A stretch of 33,066 nucleotides of DNA from Chthonomonadaceae bacterium (GTDB lineage: Bacteria > Armatimonadota > Chthonomonadetes > Chthonomonadales > Chthonomonadaceae), in contig JANXSG010000202.1 in assembly GCA_025352825.1 (NCBI GenBank), positions 1 to 33,066 of the forward strand, given 5' to 3'. Each line of letters opens with the position of its first letter. The stretch's first letter is position 1. The notes below the pieces were generated by a model. The model saw nothing but the letters and a program-made list of their open reading frames with translations. It was not told the origin of the DNA and did no database searches. A program made the position numbers and the translations under genes. This document shows positions 7,710-11,539 of the stretch, one piece after another.

Positions 7710-8348
7710 ATGTATTTTCGACGTATCATTTCATCCACCCTGGTACTTCTGGTATGCGGGCTTTTACCTCAGGCAAGCTACGCTACGGACTATGACGAAT
7801 CTGTATCGGGAGACTTCTCCAATTCAGGTCTCAGTACGACTTCAATTGTTTCTTTGACATCAGGCTCCAACCAGATATTTGGAACTACCGGACGAGGAAC
7901 CAATGCAGTGGATCGCGATTACTTCACGATCACCGTACCCGTCGGTTTGGAGATTGTTTCTCTGACGGAATTGCCGGGCACTATGGTGGGAAGATCCCTC
8001 TCTTTTATTGGACTGGAAGCCGGAACTCAGGTCACTCTTCCGTCCAATACTGCCACTGCTACGGGTCTGCTTGGCTGGACACATTATGGGACAGGTGACA
8101 TCAACACCGATATTTTGCCTCGCATGGGAATTCCTTCAAACGGTTCCTCAGGATTCACTCCGCCACTTGGCCCAGGTGACTACTCTTTCTGGATTCAGGA
8201 ATTGAGTACAGGCACATTCAATTATGGATTTGATATCGCGGTTCAAGCAACACCAGAACCTGGATCGATGGCTATATTATTTGGATTGGGTATCGGGGTC
8301 AGCACGCTTGCCATAACCAGGCTGCAACGAAAACGAATGTGTGCATGA
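7710..8348 (+). CDS. PEP-CTERM-type exported protein
   Basis: From ATG 7710 the product is 212 residues. AGGAGAG (about 7698-7704) decides this start over in-frame codons further upstream. Residues 1-25 form a signal peptide (MYFRRIISSTLVLLVCGLLP, then ASYA). The C-terminus has the tripartite sorting signal: PEPGS, a hydrophobic segment AILFGLGIGVSTLAI, and the basic tail RLQRKRMCA. Proteins of this kind are cut by exosortase and linked to the surface or extracellular matrix. The body is rich in Thr, Ser and Gly with beta-strand character (DRDYFTITVP, GDYSFWIQELSTG), resembling secreted pre-peptidase-like sandwich domains. No exosortase gene is in the window, so it must be encoded elsewhere. 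Confidence 0.8.
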   Translation: MYFRRIISSTLVLLVCGLLPQASYATDYDESVSGDFSNSGLSTTSIVSLTSGSNQIFGTTGRGTNAVDRDYFTITVPVGLEIVSLTELPGTMVGRSLSFIGLEAGTQVTLPSNTATATGLLGWTHYGTGDINTDILPRMGIPSNGSSGFTPPLGPGDYSFWIQELSTGTFNYGFDIAVQATPEPGSMAILFGLGIGVSTLAITRLQRKRMCA

Positions 8349-8497
8349 TAAATTCAATAAGATCAGAGTGCCCTCTTGTCTCGACATTAAGAGGTCGCTA
8401 AGTATCGCTCTCCCATATGCTCGCTCCTTATGAATCCAGCTCAGGTATAATCTAACTAAGGCAGATTTCTATGAACTGAATTTGAAGGAGCGAAGCG

Positions 8498-8602
8498 CTG
8501 GCAAAATGGCATATTCTATGCATAGGGACAAAATCGGATGATAACCAGACGCCAGACGAATTTATGCAAAGCCATAACGTTGTTCATATCAAACCCGTTT
8601 GA
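8498..8602 (+). CDS. Possible 34-residue microprotein with CTG start
   Basis: A frame from CTG (8498-8500) to TGA (8600-8602) reads AKWHILCIGTKSDDNQTPD, continuing with EFMQSHNVVHIKPV. It has balanced, protein-like composition. AAGGAG ends at 8490, seven bases before the CTG, which is ideal spacing. A GGTATAAT -10-like element lies about 50 bases upstream of the start. No ATG, GTG or TTG is available in this frame. It may be a real small protein, or the tail of a decayed gene; I do not recognise a family. Confidence 0.3.
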   Translation: MAKWHILCIGTKSDDNQTPDEFMQSHNVVHIKPV

Positions 8603-8782
8603 ATTGCCGATTATCATCTAGTATCGTCCTTTTAGAAGCACATCTGCACTGCAAGGACTACGGTTCGATATTCTGTTTTTGGCTCTCATTTTGTTGGGCG
8701 TTTGCTATCAGCGGCGGTTTCAGTTCCTTTCAATGGTATGAACTTATTTTCAGCGTTCCGAGTCGATTGTTTTGTTTATAAG

Positions 8783-8851
8783 CCCTCACCCCCCGTCCCC
8801 ATCTCTCTCTTGCGAGGAACGAGCAATATGGGTCAGCCTCCCGGGGTGAGG
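8783..8851. repeat. Dispersed palindromic repeat, copy 1
   Basis: It begins CCCTCACCCCCCGTCCCC and ends GGGGTGAGG, with TGCGAGGAACGAGCAATATG in the middle. The same middle appears in the same orientation near 29417-29435, and inverted near 32898-32918. The outer ends are complementary, so it can fold into a hairpin. It is noncoding. Confidence 0.7.
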
Positions 8852-9058
8852 TGAAACGATATTATTTTCATAGCCCCAGATAAACCATGCTGAATAGTTA
8901 CCCTCCTTAAACATATTTCGTTATTTCTCAGATCGAAAATGTTCGATAAGGATACTCAATTTATTCATCGCGTCAAACCATCAGTATTGAGCAGGTCTTT
9001 ACCTTAATTATACAGAATACCGATACAACAACCGTGTCACATTCCTAGGAGGTTTGCT

Positions 9059-10795
9059 ATGACTGCTATCGCTGTTGATCGCTGGCTCTGTGCGGGGCCT
9101 GTCTCGGAGGTGCAGAAGGAAGGCTCAAAAGTCGTTCATCTTGATGGGAATACCATCGCACTTTTTGCTCATGAAGGCCAGATTTACGCCGTAGACAATC
9201 GCTGCCCTCATCTCGGCTTTCCACTCCACCGAGGCACGGTTAAAGACTGCGTTCTGACCTGCCACTGGCATCAGGCACGATTCGACTTGAAGAGCGGCGG
9301 GACATTCGATCAGTGGGCCGATGATGTACGATCCTTCCCAACCGAAGTGCGCGGGCAGGAGGTCTGGGTCGACATGGCTCCTCGCAAAGATGCCGTCGTG
9401 CAGCAGCGGGAACGCCTCGAAGTCGGGCTGGAACGCAACATCTCGCTCGTGCTTGGAAAAGCAGTCGTCCTCTTGCTGGATCGCGGCGTAGACCCAGTAG
9501 AACCTTTCCGGACAGGCATGAATTTTGGAGTAACCTATCGACAGGCTGGCTGGGGACAGGGACTCACGATGCTCTCCTGCTTCATGAATATCCTCCCTCA
9601 CCTCAGTACAGCAGATCGTTCACGCGCCCTCTTTCATGGCCTATCCGCTGTTTCACGCGACTGCGCAGGGACGCCACCACGTTTTGGAATTCGCCCGCTT
9701 CCAGGCTCCGGCGCCGATTTGCCAACGCTGAAACGCTGGTTTCGGCAGTTCATCGAAGTGCGTGATTCGGAAGGGGGCGAACGCTGTGTTGTCTCCGCAA
9801 TCCGTACTGGAGCCAACGATGTACAGATGGCGGACATGCTCTTCTCTGCTGTCACCGATCATCGCTATATCAATGTCGGGCACCCGCTGGATTTTACGAA
9901 CAAAGCGCTGGAGGCGTTGGATCAGGCTGGGTGGGAGTATGCGGAACCCGTGCTCACAAGCCTGGTTTCGGGCTACGCGAATGCCGAGCGCATGGAGGAG
10001 TCGAACTCATGGCGCAATCCTATCGACCTCATCATGCATTTGGAAGTGGCGTTCTCAATGCTGCCGGAAGTCCTTCAAATCGGTGAAGCAAAACGCGGAA
10101 AATGGCGGGGAAGGGATACTCTTCTGAAGGCGCTCATTGGAGAAGAGCCATCTAAAATCGTCGAGGGGCTTCTCACTGCGCTTAGCGAAGGCGCTTCGCC
10201 TGGTGAACTCGCAGGGTCTGTGGCCTACACGGCGGCACTGCGAATCGCGCGCTTCCACACCAGTAATGAGTTCGGAGACTGGGATCGCGCGATGCATACT
10301 TTCACCTTCGCTAATGCAGTGCATCAGGGGCTTCGGCGTGTGTCTTCCGTGGAACTCCTGCGTGGTGTATTTGACGCAGCGATGAGCAGTTACCTAGACC
10401 GCTTCCTGAACGTACCGATTGCCCGTCTTCTACCATCCAGCCTCTCCGGAACGGAGGCGCTGGATGGGTTAACCACTCTTCTGGACAGGCAGCAGCAGGT
10501 TAATGAGGCAGGAGGGTTAGTCGCATCCTATCTCGAAAAGGGCGGTGATCCCGATCTGCTTCTCACCCATATCGGTCATATGCTGCTTCGGGAGGATCGT
10601 GATTTCCACAGCATCCAGATGATCGAGGCAGCGTTCCAGCAGTTCATTCTGCTTCGTGGTACACCGGAGGGGAATCAGGTTTTGGTTGCAGCCACTCGTT
10701 ATCTTGCCGCCCATGCACCTACTATGCGAACCCAGGGTCAGACATACCAGATCTCAGTACGCTTGTATCGAGGAGAGCGCCTGTTTGAAGAGTGA
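9059..10795 (+). CDS. Rieske [2Fe-2S] protein with large C-terminal helical domain
   Basis: This is a 578-residue cytoplasmic protein. Residues 1-105 form a Rieske ferredoxin-like domain: C49 and H51 in NRCPHLGFPL, C68 and H71 in LTCHWHQARFD, so all four cluster ligands are present. The remaining 470 or so residues are mostly alpha-helical and recall the C-terminal region of questin-oxidase-like (DUF4243) proteins, with several conserved-looking histidines (HLEVAFSMLPE, DRAMHTFTFANAVHQGLRR, LTHIGHMLL). No standard oxygenase mononuclear-iron motif (ExxHxxxH-type) is obvious. The domain may bind a second metal or substrate fed with electrons by the Rieske centre; that is inference. A perfect AGGAGG six bases before the ATG suggests strong translation. 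The gene is noticeably more GC-rich than its neighbours and has no partner in an operon. Confidence 0.8.
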   Translation: MTAIAVDRWLCAGPVSEVQKEGSKVVHLDGNTIALFAHEGQIYAVDNRCPHLGFPLHRGTVKDCVLTCHWHQARFDLKSGGTFDQWADDVRSFPTEVRGQEVWVDMAPRKDAVVQQRERLEVGLERNISLVLGKAVVLLLDRGVDPVEPFRTGMNFGVTYRQAGWGQGLTMLSCFMNILPHLSTADRSRALFHGLSAVSRDCAGTPPRFGIRPLPGSGADLPTLKRWFRQFIEVRDSEGGERCVVSAIRTGANDVQMADMLFSAVTDHRYINVGHPLDFTNKALEALDQAGWEYAEPVLTSLVSGYANAERMEESNSWRNPIDLIMHLEVAFSMLPEVLQIGEAKRGKWRGRDTLLKALIGEEPSKIVEGLLTALSEGASPGELAGSVAYTAALRIARFHTSNEFGDWDRAMHTFTFANAVHQGLRRVSSVELLRGVFDAAMSSYLDRFLNVPIARLLPSSLSGTEALDGLTTLLDRQQQVNEAGGLVASYLEKGGDPDLLLTHIGHMLLREDRDFHSIQMIEAAFQQFILLRGTPEGNQVLVAATRYLAAHAPTMRTQGQTYQISVRLYRGERLFEE

Positions 10796-10970
10796 TCCGG
10801 TACCCCAGATAAGTCCACCCTGAAATGTACGGGCATGTTTACTGTTTTTCTGAGCTAGGATTGGAGAGGTGGCTATGTCTGGCCTTGTTTGATTATTTCA
10901 CTGAATTCCATGTGAGACACACTTTGAATGGTGAAGTCACCTCCCAAGAGCTAGCGCGGGATACTGTCTA

Positions 10971-10979
10971 TGGTACAAT
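10971..10979 (+). promoter_or_regulatory. Extended -10 promoter TGGTACAAT of the DUF433/DUF5615 module
   Basis: TG-G-TACAAT matches the extended -10 consensus, with no good -35 at the expected place. It lies 18 bases before the start codon, so the transcript would be nearly leaderless apart from the AGGAGG at about 10986-10991. The same nonamer stands at 18185-18193. Confidence 0.4.
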
Positions 10980-10997
10980 CTATACTAGGAGGGTGTC

Positions 10998-11207
10998 ATG
11001 ATAGATCAATCTCATCTTATATCAAGCGATAAAGAGGTTTTAGGCGGAATTCCAGTTTTTATCGGAACGCGCGTACCCGCCAAAACTTTACTGGACTATC
11101 TTCGTAAAGGCCATTCTATCACCGAATTTCTGGATGACTTTCCAACGGTAACACGTCGGCAGGCCGAGGATCTACTAACCAGCTTTCAGACACTCTTGGT
11201 GGCATAA
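10998..11207 (+). CDS. DUF433 family antitoxin-like protein
   Basis: This 69-residue protein has the full DUF433 pattern: LGGIPVFIGTRVPAKTLLDYL, then FLDDFPTVTRRQAEDLL. DUF433 is a winged or helix-turn-helix-like domain almost always encoded directly before DUF5615 PIN-like proteins, and the pair is regarded as a probable toxin-antitoxin module. An AGGAGG is well placed before the ATG. The next gene starts two bases after its stop. It probably binds both its own promoter and the partner protein. Confidence 0.88.
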   Translation: MIDQSHLISSDKEVLGGIPVFIGTRVPAKTLLDYLRKGHSITEFLDDFPTVTRRQAEDLLTSFQTLLVA

Positions 11208-11209
11208 AC

Positions 11210-11539
11210 ATGAAAGTTTTGCTGGATGAGTGTTTACCAAGGAAGCTTATACTTTACCTGCCAGACCATAATGTCTCTACAGTTCCAGAAATGGGATGGG
11301 CAGGCATTAAAAATGGAGCTTTGCTGCTATTAATGGAACCTGTTTTCGATGCGTTTATCACGATAGACGGCAATATGCAATATCAGCAGAATCTCAGTTC
11401 TCATCGCATAGGTTTTGTTGTTCTGACAGCCCCAGATAATACAATTGAGACGCTGCAGACAATTGCACCTCAAATATTACATGCCGTCGACAGTCTAAAA
11501 CCTGGTCAGATAGTACAAATAAAGTACATCTTTGAATAG
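11210..11539 (+). CDS. DUF5615 PIN-like protein (probable toxin of DUF433 module)
   Basis: This 109-residue protein begins MKVLLDECLPRKL with the acidic D6-E7 pair, continues with VSTVPEMGWAGIKNGALL, and contains AFITIDGNMQYQQNLS, all diagnostic of DUF5615, a Mut7-C/PIN-related nuclease-like fold. Where most members have TADRN the sequence here has TIDGN. It keeps the aspartate but loses the usual arginine, so activity is likely but not certain. The gene follows DUF433 with a two-base gap and overlaps the next gene by eight bases, suggesting coupled translation of all three. Confidence 0.85.
   Translation: MKVLLDECLPRKLILYLPDHNVSTVPEMGWAGIKNGALLLLMEPVFDAFITIDGNMQYQQNLSSHRIGFVVLTAPDNTIETLQTIAPQILHAVDSLKPGQIVQIKYIFE

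Follow-up and report, generated by a model that had tools for sequence, protein, structure and literature searches.

An open reading frame in the 33,066-nucleotide stretch of Chthonomonadaceae DNA analysed here (hereafter the window) encodes a protein in which an N-terminal Rieske domain is followed by a large domain whose predicted structure is all-helical and resembles the fold of solved questin-oxidase-type enzymes. We hold it to be slightly better than even that this fused protein is a mononuclear non-heme iron oxygenase built on the questin-oxidase fold and fed by its own N-terminal Rieske cluster. The family to which it belongs is widespread in bacteria and archaea and still unnamed.

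Gene and Rieske domain of the fused protein

The positions of the gene and of the conserved elements of its product are compiled in Table 1. A first-pass annotation of this DNA had credited the gene with a very strong ribosome-binding site, and the 20 nt 5′ of the ORF do contain the only 7/7 match to AGGAGGT among the 24 main ORFs of the window; the other 23 reached 3-5/7, with their starts taken mechanically as first start codons, some of which may be wrong. The gene had also been described as more GC-rich than its neighbours. Its GC content (56.2%) and GC3 (58.0%) each top the 24 main ORFs; however, part of this excess is a property of the family, since the fused genes of relatives also exceed their own flanks (78/79 loci, mean +4.1 points, with non-coding DNA included in the flanks). 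A consensus scan of the plus strand from 8340 to 11260 yielded no promoter-like site, and a PHROGs search with the protein gave no match at E 0.001.

Table 1. Features of the Rieske-fusion gene and its product, with positions in the window
Feature	Position	Strand	Basis
ORF, 578 aa, Rieske domain + questin-oxidase-fold domain	9059..10795	+	ORF call, relatives, model
Shine-Dalgarno AGGAGG, 6 nt 5′ of ATG	9047..9052	+	read directly
N-terminal Rieske [2Fe-2S] domain, residues 9-105	9083..9373	+	PF00355; fold 2qpz, Z 17.8
First cluster ligand pair, C49-P-H51	9203..9211	+	invariant; codons checked
Second cluster ligand pair, C68-H-W-H71	9260..9271	+	invariant; codons checked
Helical C-terminal domain, residues 106-578	9374..10792	+	model m951dd13a2f2f, pLDDT 92.2; fold of 8yxs/PaD/BTG13
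H275-x2-D278-x3-K282, invariant; H275 proposed iron ligand, K282 possible	9881..9904	+	92/92 each
E313-E314, invariant in the fused family	9995..10000	+	92/92; second set 67/67
H413-x2-T416 (HxxT/S), proposed iron ligand and partner Thr	10295..10306	+	alignment
H517-x2-Q520 (HxxQ) in place of HxxK	10607..10618	+	alignment
H552, near-invariant His of the fused family	10712..10714	+	91/91; 66/67 in second set

Pfam matched the full protein with Rieske models only, PF00355 being the best (residues 9-82, E 1.8e-17), and NCBIfam contributed Rieske-type models below their cut-offs together with a weak match to a carboxymuconolactone decarboxylase model. The best matches of this part among solved structures are Rieske ferredoxins, and both its sequence and its fold are ferredoxin-like. 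The CxH...CxxH motif of Rieske oxygenase alpha subunits is present as well. The four cluster ligands were found where the first-pass annotation had placed them and are invariant among the letters present in a 92-row alignment of the fused family (C49 88/88, H51 90/90, C68 90/90, H71 90/90). In the relative L087 a short stretch with C49 is missing and H51, C68 and H71 are kept, which reflects either an assembly error or a real loss.

That the usual iron site of ring hydroxylases is missing, as had been noted before, was borne out by the absence of the motif D-x2-H-x4,5-H from the protein and of any Pfam match to a ring-hydroxylase catalytic domain. Given this lack of the catalytic motif and an all-helical domain, the fused protein was not filed as a classical Rieske oxygenase, although it may work like one. 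The same Pfam search revealed neither a fused reductase domain nor a DNA-binding or signalling domain. In the light of the former result, the earlier description of a self-contained oxygenase goes too far, and an outside reductase would presumably be needed.

Fold and candidate iron site of the helical domain

Comparisons at the sequence level assigned the helical domain to no established family. For the residues after the Rieske domain Pfam yielded no family up to E 10, the questin-oxidase family PF14027 gave no Pfam match to the fused protein up to the same value, and NCBIfam contained no family above its cut-off for the ~470 C-terminal residues. AhpD/carboxymuconolactone decarboxylase was considered and rejected (TIGR04029, 16.3 bits versus a cut-off of 100.75; PF02627, no match). 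A profile comparison of the domain with PF14027 by hhalign was not significant (E 0.18-0.26 in local and 0.77 in global mode, probability <1%), and only one of five settings paired all motifs, with one further setting pairing H517/Q520 alone and three aligning short or unrelated stretches. Sequence searches of the PDB, whether the query was the fused family, PF14027 or a mixed set, did not align BTG13 or PaD at the level of residues. Optineurin chains, which appeared against residues 453-533 in the search with the fused family (E 0.0014 and 0.0028), were taken as chance helix similarity.

The predicted structures are confident, with a mean pLDDT of 91.3 and a pTM of 0.91 for the AlphaFold model of the full-length protein and a pTM of 0.92 for the C-domain modelled alone. 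This is in accordance with the earlier reading of about 470 helical residues after the Rieske domain, the model of that part being helical throughout. The fold search, which the first-pass annotation had proposed together with the structure prediction, matched enzyme folds, and a non-enzymatic solenoid did not appear. Using VIA-align, the full model was superimposed on the questin oxidase BTG13 (7y3x, residues 140-557, Z 16.9, 328 aligned, rmsd 4.1; 7y3w, residues 140-557, Z 16.4, 331 aligned, rmsd 4.3), on the non-heme iron dioxygenase 8yxs (residues 140-558, Z 15.5, 333 aligned, rmsd 4.7) and on the hydroquinone dioxygenase PaD (8z4q, residues 143-559, Z 14.1, 325 aligned, rmsd 4.5), at identities of 8-11% across these fold matches. 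The C-domain alone matched 8yxs (Z 15.3, 324 aligned, rmsd 4.5) and PaD 8z4q (Z 13.4, 330 aligned, rmsd 4.7), the only full-domain matches among the 50 listed; BTG13 was absent from these best 50, and the rows that followed were fragments of about 100 residues (Z 11.7-12.6) and then matches of Z <=6.1. Foldseek returned 8yxs as the single match below 0.001 for the C-domain alone (E 7.6e-4), and only Rieske matches among the best 50 listed for the full-length model. C-terminal fragments of AAA-ATPases (2r9g, 8g28) reached Z 12.4-13.0, near the values of PaD, over only ~100 residues and were set aside as a common helical arrangement. These scores have to be read with the reservation that middling Z values are common among helical folds and that values up to Z 14 can arise for helical models that lack clear relatives.

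Next to fused proteins, the profile of the C-domain matched stand-alone proteins, namely L146 (E 1.7e-5), L144 (E 3.0e-5) and L174-L176 (E 8.2e-7 to 1.1e-5). With L146 as query, the window protein was recovered at E 1.5e-6, along with the further relatives L183-L185. No Rieske domain was found in the stand-alone relatives, nor any Rieske protein near them in the five stretches searched in six frames, and L144 and L146 matched no Pfam family above cut-off. By eye, L144, L146 and L183-L185 have export-type N-termini; they keep HxxK.

Among the His, acidic, basic and amide residues of the C-domain, 26 are invariant in the 92-row set, and 20 of these are so in a second, partly overlapping set as well. 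H275, H413 and H517 are invariant in the 92, 91 and 91 letters present and in 67/67 rows of the second set; each of the three is also kept in seven of the eight stand-alone relatives. Position 416 is Thr in 85/91 and Ser in 6/91 rows, and Q520 is invariant (91/91 and 67/67). E313-E314 are not conserved in relatives outside the fused family, and the position of H552 is not His there. Of the histidine-bearing segment HTFTFANAVHQ (residues 413-423), to which attention had been drawn earlier, H413 is invariant, whereas H422 occurs in only 58/92 rows.

For a comparison with questin oxidases, six bacterial PF14027 members were available, one from Candidatus Binatota and five from the Rubrobacter phylum, in which 5/296 genomes match (one of them, L117, below cut-off). 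None of the 61 nearest genomes contained PF14027 above cut-off, and the window's own genome is without a match. The invariant His of the six members lie in NHxPM, TH, a following (G/A)H, HxxT and HxxK. When 20 fused, 8 stand-alone and these 6 sequences were aligned with MAFFT, all four modes placed H275, H413 and H517 on all-His PF14027 columns, while T416 was aligned with Thr and Q520 with Lys. HxxT and the upstream THG/GH His of PF14027 are thus matched by H413-x2-T416 and H275 in 4/4 MAFFT modes and 1/5 hhalign settings. By eye, the partner of H275 is ambiguous, since two PF14027 His lie seven residues apart; if H275 pairs with the first (THG), K282 would sit on the second. The column of H275 is His in 6/6 PF14027 members, and the NHxPM His seems to correspond to Leu172 (His in 28/92 rows), a pairing that comes from one hhalign setting only. 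The lysine of HxxK is kept in all six PF14027 members and replaced by Q520 in the fused family; among the stand-alone relatives, position 520 is Lys in 5/8 and Gln, Pro and Thr in one each of L174-L176. As far as the aligned sequences go, Gln at 520 is a mark of the fused family, though one stand-alone relative also has Gln.

A control counted how many of the four invariant His columns met all-His columns, the true set reaching three. This number was reached by none of 40 column-permuted copies; however, 4/20 rotated copies, in which motifs are kept, reached three or four, and the reversed copy reached one. When the stand-alone sequences were left out, three were again reached by the true set, and also by 1/20 permuted copies. 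Because this control is not clean and hhalign is not significant, the link to PF14027 rests on fold, motif order and stand-alone relatives together. On the predicted model, the questin-oxidase likeness of the domain is supported by fold and not by sequence: the likeness proposed in the first-pass annotation holds for the fold over most of the domain and for the conserved His, but not for a PF14027 sequence match or the HxxK lysine. Since model match and HxxK fail, the protein was not filed under PF14027; it may still work like its members.

The identity of 8-11%, the insignificant hhalign result and the Z values that unrelated helical models can attain would also suit a mere shared helical arrangement, in which the domain is a different, possibly metal-free one and the Rieske cluster serves another reaction. 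We consider this quite unlikely, as the matches cover most of the domain with no other full-domain match among the 50 listed, the His motifs agree in order, and there are stand-alone relatives with HxxT and HxxK.

Distribution, gene neighbourhood and origin

A search of GTDB genomes with residues 106-578 as query led to 225 candidate stretches, of which 207 were confirmed as relatives. The best 80 of these 207 were kept and belong to Chloroflexota (40), Cyanobacteriota (21), Planctomycetota (5), Actinomycetota (4), Thermomicrobiota (3), Acidobacteriota (2), Armatimonadota (2) and Candidatus Binatota (1), with two lacking a label. Of the 79 plasmid records that match, 24 cover at least 80% of the query. 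Metabacillus, Priestia, Sinorhizobium, Microvirga, Paraburkholderia and Halorussus are among the 20 plasmid records listed, of which 19 are annotated as plain Rieske protein and the remaining one is unannotated. Altogether, the fused gene occurs in ten bacterial phyla (eight among the kept loci, and Bacillota and Pseudomonadota on plasmids) and in haloarchaea. The profile of the C-domain matched 20/201 genomes of the window's phylum (its own included; G620 with the stand-alone type only), 32/201 in the phylum to which a Thermalbibacter genome belongs (this seed included; six only weakly, at E 2e-10 or worse) and 6/244 in the cyanobacterial phylum (seed included), where the distribution is patchy. 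One genome of the window's phylum (G040) carries a copy identical to that of L076 (Armatimonadetes).

In the second set, which leaves out L141, L143-L146 and L173-L176 as fragments or distant relatives and in which L126-L137 largely repeat L084-L093, 61/66 C-domain loci carry an in-frame CxH...CxxH. The five without the full motif are L087 and L130, which are the same gene with a short gap that removes C49, L153, whose frame starts inside the Rieske part, and L164 and L139, whose stretches begin inside the gene. Among the 91 relatives of the first set, the Rieske frame is wholly or partly missing in L047 (frame break) and in L060 and L067 (contig edge). Compared with the window protein, the relatives average an identity of 0.59 in the Rieske part (89 rows) and of 0.60 in the remainder (91 rows).

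Flanking genes were surveyed at 88 of the 91 loci, with 167 ORFs predicted at -1/+1 and 148 of them scanned. Among the best 25 of the 141 Pfam families found, the commonest was MFS_1 (9/148), flavin or pyridine-nucleotide domains occurred two to three times each, and no catabolic or biosynthetic partner gene was evident. An alpha/beta hydrolase lies in the flank in 4/9 annotated plasmid regions (one counted by name), and ribonucleotide reductase alpha and beta genes follow the haloarchaeal plasmid copies L186 and L188 (2/9 annotated regions); both are too weak to use. In the Candidatus Binatota locus L053, a PF14027 gene at 9410-10468 shares 4 nt with the end of the fused gene, and no other PF14027 gene was seen among the loci L001-L109. 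In the window itself, the Rieske gene is followed at 10998-11539 by a DUF433 ORF (PF04255, E 7e-15) and a DUF5615-like ORF (E 0.0016, below cut-off), a layout that we take to be that of a toxin-antitoxin pair. Another genome of the same phylum encodes a chlorite-dismutase domain (PF06778, E 4.3e-56) with a C-terminal Rieske domain (L095:1486-2592), located between ORFs that by eye resemble haem-synthesis genes.

The patchy distribution, exemplified by the few cyanobacterial genomes, the lack of a conserved partner among the best 25 families and the loss of the HxxK lysine could also be explained by a redox- or oxygen-sensing or storage protein that has lost catalysis and whose Rieske cluster reports the redox state. 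The 26 invariant polar residues, however, look like a catalytic site, and a DNA-binding or signalling domain is missing by Pfam, so that this reading appears decidedly improbable.

In a quick tree of 88 rows, which left out four truncated rows and whose loci had been chosen for likeness to the window, the window protein falls inside a 79-row set of mostly Chloroflexota and cyanobacteria (SH-aLRT 100), apart from the proteins of its own family (L085-L087, L089). Holding it together with the latter was rejected at p-AU 0.0001 for a group that was named after the tree had been seen. Several branches are long, the window's among them. Based on this position and on the highest GC and GC3 in the window, the fused gene was probably acquired horizontally.

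Proposed function and comparison with known systems

If the fused protein is an electron-fed oxygenase, electrons would pass from NAD(P)H to an unlinked ferredoxin reductase, from there to the Rieske [2Fe-2S] cluster, and on to an iron with H275, H413 and H517 as its ligands and Q520 or K282 close by; the iron would then activate O2 for attack on a substrate that is cyclic and probably aromatic or quinone-like. Metal, electron flow between the domains, O2 chemistry, reductase and substrate are all parts that we infer. In favour of the oxygenase reading are the similarity of the Rieske domain to ferredoxins of oxygenase systems, the fold match to solved non-heme iron oxygenases, which extends over 324-333 residues (Z 13.4-16.9), the invariance of H275, H413 and H517 and their fall on PF14027 His, the stand-alone relatives, and the fact that the Rieske and helical parts of relatives are equally alike to the window protein. 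Against it stand the missing significant sequence link to PF14027, the unclean His control, the lack of the Lys that is reportedly an iron ligand in BTG13 and of an evident partner gene among the best 25 families, and the frequency of middling Z values among helical folds. Because most hhalign settings miss the motif pairing, our confidence in this reading was lowered by a trace.

In BTG13, iron is reportedly held by four His and the carboxylated Lys377, with Thr299 nearby. The titles of the closest folds (questin oxidase, non-heme iron dioxygenase, hydroquinone dioxygenase) and the three shared His would fit an iron dioxygenase like BTG13 or PaD as well, which turns over without outside electrons and whose Rieske domain serves only to maintain the iron in the ferrous state or to convert a quinone substrate into its hydroquinone in situ. 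This appears unlikely considering that Gln replaces the Lys of HxxK in 91/91 fused proteins versus 1/8 stand-alone relatives, a distribution that points to a change of the metal site in step with the fusion.

Going one step further than the oxygenase reading, the family might represent a second, independently evolved class of Rieske oxygenases, in which the questin-oxidase fold replaces the Bet v 1-like catalytic domain. The fusion would have gone along with loss of the carboxylated Lys (Lys to Gln at 520) and turned a dioxygenase dependent on reduced substrates into an electron-fed enzyme, and K282 may have taken over the metal. We regard this as a tentative possibility that falls short of even. 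Questin-oxidase-type enzymes have been described chiefly in polyketide pathways of fungi, and the fungal iron enzymes that the helical domain resembles in shape are ring-opening ones. A prokaryotic branch with its own electron carrier would be a source of oxygenases still to be characterised and would amount to a natural experiment on the purpose of the carboxylated-lysine ligand. The fused protein could well be an oxygenase of a new kind that carries its own electron carrier.

A literature search returned no paper that combines Rieske with questin oxidase and none on BTG13 with carboxylated lysine, and the titles listed for BTG13 alone were unrelated. The synthesis of minimycin involves a DUF4243 domain in MinC (PMC8724604). 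With the family of this domain, now PF14027, and BTG13, the fused protein shares the fold (7y3w, 331 residues, Z 16.4) and three His motifs in the same order, HxxT included; it differs by the added Rieske domain, by HxxQ instead of HxxK and by the lack of a Pfam-level match. PaD (8z4q/8z4r) and 8yxs share the fold as well (Z 13.4-15.5, 324-333 residues), but are only 8-10% identical to the fused protein, and their chains match from residues 28-34 onwards (model residues 140-144), which leaves no room for a preceding Rieske domain. The stand-alone relatives L144 and L146, homologous to the C-domain, and L183-L185, homologous to L146, share the His motifs and differ in that no Rieske domain was found in them, in their export-type N-terminus (by eye) and in keeping HxxK.

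The alpha subunit of Rieske non-heme iron oxygenases likewise combines an N-terminal Rieske domain with a mononuclear iron domain in one chain, as is proposed here, whereas the catalytic part of the fused protein is all-helical and without the Asp/His/His motif. A further parallel is provided by T4moC, the ferredoxin of toluene-4-monooxygenase, to which the Rieske part has a weak sequence match (E 0.0027). T4moC is a Rieske ferredoxin that serves a helical non-heme iron enzyme; there, however, the two are separate proteins and the site is a diiron one, while the fused protein is a single chain without the ExxH motif.
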